A DNA stretch of 64,000 bases, taken from positions 682,001-746,000 of the forward strand of contig NZ_WLYK01000001.1 in the NCBI RefSeq assembly GCF_009707545.1, written 5' to 3'. This document shows, piece by piece, positions 33,252 through 34,851 of this stretch (its first letter is position 1; each line of letters opens with the position of its first letter). The notes beneath the pieces are model-generated. The model had not been told where the DNA came from and did no database searches. It saw only the letters and a list, made by a program, of their open reading frames with translations. The position numbers were made by a program, and so were the translations under genes. Origin of the DNA: Nakamurella alba (GTDB taxonomy: Bacteria > Actinomycetota > Actinomycetes > Mycobacteriales > Nakamurellaceae).

Positions 33252-33695
33252 ATGTCTGCCAGGTCCAAGGCCCGCAAACGCGCGCTCGACGTGCTGTTCG
33301 CCGCCGACGCCCGCTCCGTCGACCCCGAGTCGATCCTCCAGGAACGGCTGACCGCCGAGGACGCGGGCGGCACGGCCGGTGTCGGTGCGGTGCCGATGGG
33401 GGAGTACGCGGAGGAGCTGGTCCGCGGGGTGCGTGAGCACATCCTGCGGATCGACGACCTGATCGCCGAGCACGCCGAGGGCTGGACCCTGGACCGGATG
33501 CCGGCCGTGGACCGGGCGATCCTGCGGATCGCGACCTACGAGCTGGCCTACTCCACCGACGTCCCGCCGGCGGTCGCCGTCGACGAGGCCGTCGAGCTCG
33601 CCAAGTCGCTGTCCACCGACAACTCCCCCCGCTTCGTCAACGGGGTCCTCGGCCAGATCGTCACCATCGCCCCGAGATTGAGGGCCAGCAGGTGA
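33252..33695 (+). CDS. nusB: Transcription antitermination factor NusB
   Basis: A 147-residue all-helical RNA-binding protein that acts with NusE/S10 in rRNA antitermination. Conserved parts are SARSKARKRALDVLFAAD at the N-terminus, DRMPAVDRAILRIATYEL and DEAVELAKSLSTDNSPRFVNGVLG. It is the last gene of the aro-pepQ-efp block and converges on bldD across a structured repeat. Confidence 0.95.
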   Translation: MSARSKARKRALDVLFAADARSVDPESILQERLTAEDAGGTAGVGAVPMGEYAEELVRGVREHILRIDDLIAEHAEGWTLDRMPAVDRAILRIATYELAYSTDVPPAVAVDEAVELAKSLSTDNSPRFVNGVLGQIVTIAPRLRASR

Positions 33696-33696
33696 C

Positions 33697-34003
33697 ATGG
33701 CGAGCTGGCGCTCGCGGGTCGCTCGTCTCTTATGGGATCCCGCGTCCTGCGCTGAACATGGCGGCCTGGCGGCCGCGGGCCGCCCGTCTTGTAAGGGATC
33801 GCAGGAGCTGTGCTTCTCGCCTGCGCTCGTGCCTCGCTTCGGCTGCGATGCTCGCTCCCGCGATCCCGACGGACGACCATTCATGGCGAGCTGGCGCTCG
33901 CGGGTCGCTCGTCTTGTAAGGGATCCCGCGGGCTGCGCTTCTCGCCTCTGCTCGTCCCTCGCGCCGGCTGCGATGCTCGCCCGCACGATCCCGACGAGCG
34001 ACC
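33697..34003. repeat. Palindromic intergenic repeat: two full copies and one partial
   Basis: Three related units start at 33697 (partial, about 50 bases), 33758 and 33883. In the last two, arms flank a 45-base loop. Copy 3 pairs 33903-33913 with 33993-34003 (11 of 11) and 33920-33933 with 33979-33992 (12 of 14). Copy 2 pairs 33795-33808 with 33854-33867 (13 of 14). Arm sequences differ between copies but pairing is kept. A TTGTAA bulge lies between the two arms on the left side. The last arm ends exactly at the bldD stop codon. No real gene is present. Confidence 0.75.
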
Positions 34004-34485
34004 TAATCCAGTTCTGTACCGGCGGGGAGGACGCCCCAGCCGACGAGCTGCTCGGTGAGGCTCTCGGGGGACATGTCGTAGATGACGGCCAGGGAGCGCA
34101 GGTCCTCCTGGCGGATGGTCAGCACCTTGCCGTTGTAGTCACCGCGCTGGGACTGGATGGCGGCGGCGTAGCGGGCGAGCGGTCCGGCCTGGTGCGCCGG
34201 CAGCTCGGAGAGCCGACCGAGGTCGATGACCAGCTTGGGTGCGGGGGCACCACGACGGGAGGCCCGCGCATCGGGCAGCAGCTCGGCCACCGGGACGCCG
34301 TAGAACTCGGCCAGCTCGGCGAGCTTGGCGACGGTCACCGCACGGTCACCGCGCTCGTAGGAGCCGACGACCACTGCCTTCCAGCGACCCTCGGACTTCT
34401 CCTCGACACCGTGCAGGCTCAGACCCTGCTGGGATCGAATGGAGCGCAGGCGCTGACCGAGCGCCCGCGCGTAGTCCTGACTCAT
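34003..34485 (-). CDS. bldD: BldD-type cyclic-di-GMP-responsive regulator
   Basis: A 160-residue DNA-binding regulator. Residues about 8-70 form an XRE-type helix-turn-helix (LGQRLRSIRSQQGLSLHGVE, VVVGSYERGDRAVTVAKLAE). The C-terminal domain carries RGD at 114-116, eight residues, then RQED at 125-128, which matches the RxD-x8-RxxD signature that in Streptomyces BldD binds a tetrameric cyclic-di-GMP and drives dimerisation. BldD represses development genes there. The ATG at 34485 is used. It sits between nusB and the pyr operon as in Streptomyces, and a BldD-like box lies in its own promoter. Confidence 0.9.
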   Translation of the reverse strand: MSQDYARALGQRLRSIRSQQGLSLHGVEEKSEGRWKAVVVGSYERGDRAVTVAKLAELAEFYGVPVAELLPDARASRRGAPAPKLVIDLGRLSELPAHQAGPLARYAAAIQSQRGDYNGKVLTIRQEDLRSLAVIYDMSPESLTEQLVGWGVLPAGTELD

Positions 34486-34562
34486 GACGGCCCTTCCGAG
34501 CACTGGTGGAATCCCGGCCACCCGGTGACCCGGGCTTGGTGACTCCGACGACATTCTGTTGT

Positions 34563-34596
34563 ACATAGAGTAGTCGAAACTGCGCCGATCTGACTA
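34563..34596 (-). promoter_or_regulatory. bldD promoter
   Basis: On the minus strand a TAGTCA (-35, 34591-34596) is followed after 18 bases by TACTCT (-10, 34567-34572). The predicted start gives a leader of about 75 bases. The -35 lies inside the BldD-like box, so binding would block RNA polymerase. Confidence 0.5.
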
Positions 34597-34603
34597 CAGG
34601 TAA
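34591..34603. promoter_or_regulatory. Candidate BldD operator
   Basis: TGACTACAGGTAA has the form TNAC-N5-GTNA, the half-sites and spacing of the BldD box described in Streptomyces. It overlaps the -35 of bldD, fitting the known autorepression of BldD. Confidence 0.5.
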
Positions 34604-34851
34604 CCAAACATTCCTCTACGTGTTCAAAACCTGAGTCTCCGCGCCGTCACCGTCCCTCCGCTGCATGACGCGCCGGGGCCCGCTACATCCGTGGAAATTC
34701 GGTGACCGGCCACGATGCCGGAGCGCTCGACCGTTCGTGGCGGACGCGCCACCCGACGGCGTGCCGCGCGCCACCCGAGGCAGCCGATCGGCGTCACCGG
34801 GTCCGCGAACGGGCGGTCACCCGGCGCCGCAGTGGCCCGCTCCCGCGGTGG

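Follow-up and report, generated by a model that had tools for sequence, protein, structure and literature searches.

What kind of element is the palindromic repeat that fills the gap between the convergent genes nusB and bldD, and what keeps its copies folding alike although their arms differ in sequence? A sequence-only reading of the window (the whole stretch of 64,000 nucleotides that was analysed, in whose positions the locus is given here) had noticed two such units and proposed either a two-way terminator or a mobile palindromic element. Below we describe the array and its fold, the copies elsewhere in the genome and the relatives in the wider order, after which the competing explanations are weighed.

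The array between nusB and bldD

The palindromic repeat is real: two full 122-nt units and a truncated third copy, separated by a few bases only, fill the entire gap from the stop codon of nusB to that of bldD (Table 1). Both genes score above the NCBIfam cut-offs (TIGR01951 for NusB, NF050110 for BldD). The array begins directly after the nusB stop codon and, as had been read from the sequence, its last arm ends at the bldD stop codon, base 34003 being where helix P1 ends and where the complement of that codon begins. Despite an identity of 83%, both full units fold on themselves: the 14-base arms pair within their own unit at 13/14 and 12/14 positions, and the 11-bp outer arm is indeed perfect in the last copy.

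Table 1. Parts of the array and the adjoining genes, in window positions
Feature	Position	Strand	Remark
nusB	33252..33695	+	stop codon (33693-33695) adjoins the array
Truncated copy	33696..33753	-	3' half: P4, 3' strand of P1 and part of P2
Full copy 1	33757..33878	-	14-base arms (33795-33808 region and partner) paired at 13/14
Full copy 2	33882..34003	-	reaches the bldD stop codon
P4 hairpin, full copy 2	33886..33901	-	followed by CATG (33882-33885) on the minus strand
P1 3' arm, full copy 2	33903..33913	-	perfect partner of the 5' arm
Six-base bulge, full copy 2	33914..33919	-	3' side, between P2 and P1
P2 3' arm, full copy 2	33920..33933	-	
Loop with inner helices and conserved core	33934..33978	-	GAGCATCGCAG...GAGGNACGAGC on the minus strand
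P2 5' arm, full copy 2	33979..33992	-	
P1 5' arm, full copy 2	33993..34003	-	GGTCGCTCGTC on the minus strand
bldD	34003..34485	-	stop codon (34003-34005) met by the array

In minus-strand orientation the unit comprises a long helix, built from P1, P2 and inner helices and carrying a one-sided bulge of six bases on its 3' side; a second hairpin, P4, comes next, and then CATG. P4 is part of the unit and is an addition to what had first been observed. The minus-strand folds of the two window units reach -75.7 and -73.7 kcal/mol; relative to dinucleotide-shuffled sequences their z-scores are -7.4 and -6.2 (-2.7 and -4.1 for the plus strand), and the single A.C mismatch in the 14-base arms of the first unit becomes a G.U pair. 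Over the 25 full copies described below, the sense strand (minus in the window) is more stable in 22 with RNA parameters and in all 25 with DNA parameters. Given this greater stability and an excess of G.U over A.C, it is probably the sense strand that folds, which fits RNA and single-stranded DNA alike.

Copies across the genome

The search for further copies that had been suggested from the sequence yielded 25 full copies together with fragments. A BLAST search of the genome (6.05 Mb in 29 contigs) yields 54 matches for the region (E <= 1) and 46 for its last unit (E <= 0.001). A covariance model (R1) was built from the 25 full copies (alignment A1), which are those left of 27 first aligned after omission of two partial copies with P4 only. 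At E <= 1.9e-18 the model recovers these 25, its own training set, and at E <= 1 it matches 40 places in the genome. The unit measures about 117-134 nt (typically about 125 nt), and copies occur singly, head to tail and as inverted pairs, while half copies break within the central loop. The core is nearly constant in the alignment, and P1 and P4 are its most variable parts; within 864 kb there is one likely case of P4 as a stand-alone repeat (locus L168). One unit had no match in a plasmid collection (E 1e-5).

Eight of the 18 clusters of full copies lie within C1:1.52-1.92 Mb. The Poisson p for one 400-kb stretch with eight clusters is 3.5e-5, a value that makes no correction for the choice of this stretch. 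Since the GC skew changes sign inside it, this stretch may be near the terminus.

Two further observations concern repeats beside the full copies. At L174:3804-3902 (C3:59803-59901) there is a core-like hairpin with neither a recognisable P1 nor a P4 and with a weak model match (E 0.0024), possibly an intermediate form. The spacers between copies at L157 and L158 have a hairpin-like word in common, GGGGACCGTTT...GGTTTCGGTCCC, which is perhaps a third repeat family.

Covariation of the arms

Rather than a repeat with no other copies and no covariation in relatives, we found both copies and covariation. In the alignment of 25 distinct copies the 33 pairs make up 824 cells, of which 98.8% are paired; shuffles reach 91.6%, and slid partners 34-44%. 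Changes on both sides are seen in 14 of the 33 pairs (6.5 in shuffles) and in 51 cells (13.7 in shuffles), and none of 500 shuffles matches any of the five observed covariation values; as the consensus structure was derived from the same 25-copy alignment, which favours the fit, and the copies are related, these shuffle counts are not probabilities. Stem cells hold 47 G.U against 3 A.C, with 23 of the 47 G.U at one inherited pair. When this pair is left out, G.U occurs in 11 columns and A.C in 3 (two columns with both), at p 0.029.

Compensatory change, which had been noticed in two units, is thereby confirmed on 25 copies, and it is found again in the core units of another family (see below). 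The statement that it points to a selected structure holds in part: the covariation is strong, but replication template switching can also produce compensatory changes (PMC8794818).

Placement at gene 3' ends

Gene contexts were taken from a home-made ORF caller based on codon usage instead of a published gene finder, and were assigned to 18 clusters of full copies (leaving aside L174, L175, L176 and further weak or partial places). Ten clusters are situated between convergent genes, eight between co-directional genes and none between divergent genes. In a background of 864 kb, which includes the 400-kb block picked for copy clustering, convergent gaps account for 11% of the intergenic bases and for 108 of the 719 gene pairs. 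The convergent enrichment has a p of 4.7e-6 by length and 8.0e-5 by gene pairs; for the absence from divergent gaps (0/18) the values are 7.5e-4 by length and only 0.053 by pairs.

In 16 of the 18 clusters (the exceptions being L162 and L164) the element turns a P4 end towards the stop codon of a gene that is read against it. Among 19 such ends, 11 lie at 0-2 nt and seven at 6-19 nt from the stop codon, whereas one (L171) overlaps the end of the ORF. These distances were read by eye; for the left end at L160 and for L161 and L173, where CATG has diverged, the boundary was set from P4, and for L159 the distance was taken from a residual P4 fragment.

Same-genus genomes

The family to which the window belongs is represented by one genus in our genome set. 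Within this genus, the full element (covariance-model search) and the core pattern (see below) were each found in 0 of 16 genomes. Relatives gave three short, partial DNA matches of 26-44 nt (L032, L033 and L034). In the eight of 16 genomes where a script placed both genes, the gap between nusB and bldD is 13-163 nt long; the placement was repeated for two relatives only. Short hairpin-like gaps are present at this place in relatives. For NusB, a comparison with two relatives puts the end of the protein at about the same residue, and the orthologous genes of relatives that lack the element likewise have nearly the same end points. In one relative, G006, the gene pair of L160 is separated by a gap of 43 nt and that of L169 holds an unrelated palindrome. 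Judged from the relatives' gaps and the matching gene ends, the element appears to have taken over existing 3' ends in the cases checked, and the genes do not seem to have been cut short.

The idea of a mobile palindromic element is supported indirectly, by the dispersed copies, the head-to-tail arrays, the half copies and the absence from the relatives that were searched with the model; no movement and, in the relatives compared, no clean empty site was seen.

G006 has hairpin-like repeats of its own. The palindrome in the L169 gene pair (CATCGACCGGAATGAGATCCGCA...) is one of two copies in the joined block from C1 (3630001-4030000), which lie between genes at 68551 and 166569. A hairpin-like repeat with GCATGGATCAAC ends occurs at four or more intergenic places of the same block (near 145294, 203433, 257395 and 272141).

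Core units in the wider order

A covariance-model search of relatives had also been proposed; it found the full element nowhere, and the core is present in other families. For the full element the count is 0 of 297 other genomes of the order (strict filters, 11 candidates scored per genome), in a search that recovered 11 of the 25 copies of the own genome and could miss genomes with few or diverged copies. Own genome included, 45 of the 298 genomes of the order, from 13 of its 76 genera, contain the core pattern GAGCATCGCAGN{0,20}GAGGNACGAGC, and none contains the reversed pattern. Counted by hand, 32 of the 45 belong to family f16, ten to f2 and one each to f7 and f13, the remaining one being the own genome. 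A phylum-wide draw of 118 further genomes contained no match to the core pattern.

In f16 and f2 the core belongs to a short unit with a period of mostly 77-84 nt, sometimes 27-57 nt, and the frame GAG CAT CGC would yield a EHRSEERARSGA-like peptide. An in-frame ATGA or GTGA at most 24 nt upstream of the core is found at 14 of 30 loci (29 from f16, one from f2) and at 22 of 29 further loci (mostly from f2, several of them in the same array). Instead, an in-frame stop precedes the unit at 8/30 and 3/29 loci, and neither is seen at 8/30 and 4/29. The arms that flank the core also covary across genera: 90.8% are paired against 65.3% in shuffles (30 sequences, 7 pairs), and the covariation score is 0.544 against 0.137, with 0/500 shuffles as high, although two of the five measures (pairs changed and types changed) are unexceptional at 66/500 and 73/500 shuffles. 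P1 and P4 have no counterpart among the core units elsewhere, and any descent from these units is consequently read from the core only. In a comparison of the f16 flanks (29 loci) for target-site duplication, the longest word common to both sides of the unit has a mean length of 7.1 nt, while shuffled partners give 5.4 nt (maximum 6.2 in 200); tandem remnants yield the same signal.

A locus of the own genome deserves separate mention. At L175:3950-4090 (C1:1678950-1679090) two core units lie 90 nt apart, in frame within an ORF that has a DUF58 Pfam match in two stretches, so that a translated relative of the repeat is present in this genome too.

Origin and possible role

We consider it probable that the repeat is non-autonomous and interspersed, a hairpin element related to MIRU-like units but non-coding, which has colonised the 3' ends of genes. 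It would share an ancestor with a MIRU-like unit or descend from one, and may then have gained the outer helix P1 and the second hairpin P4, a consistent reading frame being absent. Copying might depend on a factor whose gene lies elsewhere; it would recognise the core and the sense strand in its folded state, perhaps as single-stranded DNA. Among the Y1 transposase and reverse transcriptase families no mobilising enzyme was found. Behind stop codons the element would be tolerated, and perhaps kept, as its hairpins could substitute for the 3' hairpin or terminator that is native to these sites in relatives. A wider and more tentative reading, to which we give something like one chance in three, is that a single family of mobile hairpins follows two lifestyles within one order: in some lineages a translated mini-ORF at operon stop-start junctions, and in this species a non-coding, folded cap placed immediately behind stop codons, where it takes over gene 3' ends. 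A factor would then recognise the folded strand through the fixed core, while the arms drift freely yet in step with each other.

Two of the alternatives deserve serious attention, even though each is rather unlikely. The repeat could owe its spread to a function for the host, as a two-way terminator or an mRNA 3'-end cap that selection has kept between convergent genes. The placement fits, with ten of 18 clusters in convergent gaps that comprise 11% of intergenic bases, an array that occupies the entire nusB-bldD gap, and short hairpin-like gaps at the same place in relatives; the eight clusters that are not convergent and the absence of the element from the genus argue against it. Moreover, a simple consensus scan of both strands of 33500-34200 found no T-tract terminator. 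Actinobacterial terminators may lack the T run, and termination by the array stays putative, its position being in favour and the missing T-tract against. It might alternatively be argued, at about the same low probability, that the repeat is a selfish palindrome in which template switching during replication keeps the arms similar, with no selection for the fold. The mechanism can make and mend hairpins (PMC8794818), and it would agree with the differences between P1 arms and between P4 arms, which come in blocks of several bases, as well as with half copies broken in the loop. The nearly fixed core is less easily accommodated, as is the prevalence of G.U over A.C (11 against 3 columns, p 0.029), although the same source allows for an asymmetry of base-pair frequencies through template switching. 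The covariation can therefore be attributed to selection or to template switching; the G.U excess leans towards selection but is not decisive.

Two other identities are far less credible. A structured small RNA gene with tandem and dispersed copies would account for the strong fold, the conserved core and the covariation, but is very improbable given the arrays, the half copies and the lack of any copy in the genus. Rfam gave no match at the gathering score, with none at eight loci of the element and, in 33500-34700, a single sub-threshold one that lies outside it, and a scan limited to promoters of sigma-70-like type found none at the locus. That we are dealing with REP elements mobilised through a RAYT (Y1) transposase can hardly be maintained either: the copies are intergenic, palindromic, numerous and often in arrays, yet PF01797 has 0 matches in the genome, whereas the same search was positive in 5 of 14 control genomes. 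A search for reverse transcriptase likewise gave no match in the genome.

If the probable reading of an interspersed hairpin repeat holds, a covarying repeat from a single genome becomes tied to a wider family of small MIRU-like elements. The natural series of free arms round a fixed core offers a handle on what moves enzyme-less repeats, and makes a good case for separating selection from template switching in the covariation of DNA palindromes. It also bears on the question of repeats taking the place of terminators in convergent gene pairs.

Comparison with known systems

REP elements and BIMEs are intergenic palindromes in many copies, linked with RAYT transposases. The repeat resembles them by its intergenic palindromes, its many copies, its arrays and its inverted pairs, and differs in having a longer unit with two unlike hairpins in a genome without a Y1 transposase. 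MITEs are small, non-coding and multicopy, with a parent transposon and a target duplication. Our element is likewise small, apparently non-coding and multicopy, but it combines two unlike hairpins, no parent transposon was found among the two enzyme families searched, and no target duplication was seen by eye around its copies. Integron attC sites were weighed as an identity by eye only, from their motif. Among the openly licensed PMC papers listed for extragenic palindromes in Actinobacteria, MIRUs, repeats of Geodermatophilus and Blastococcus, repeat-derived two-way terminators and short interspersed elements, none describes this repeat family in its title or the start of its abstract, which does not establish novelty.

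MIRUs (mycobacterial interspersed repetitive units) were reportedly first described by Supply in 1997. Their frame-bound layout is not that of the repeat studied here: its two halves are shifted in frame against each other by all three possible values (in 16, 7 and 2 of the 25 copies), and a coding role was set aside on this ground. MIRUs are small dispersed repeats of 46-101 bp, often in tandem, with 41 loci in M. tuberculosis H37Rv (PMC3914561), and they appear mobile and sit at stop-start junctions (PMC12548453). With its units of about 117-134 nt the element falls outside this size range, and it has an extra helix and hairpin, lacks a consistent reading frame and is placed behind stop codons, in most cases on the strand opposite to the adjoining gene. 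Nonetheless it shares with MIRUs the small, dispersed and tandem repeats, and the core units of f16 and f2 show the stop-start junction layout; this likeness is one of layout. Overall, the repeat extends well beyond the two units first noticed and would be a variant of the small, enzyme-less interspersed repeats of the MIRU or REP type.
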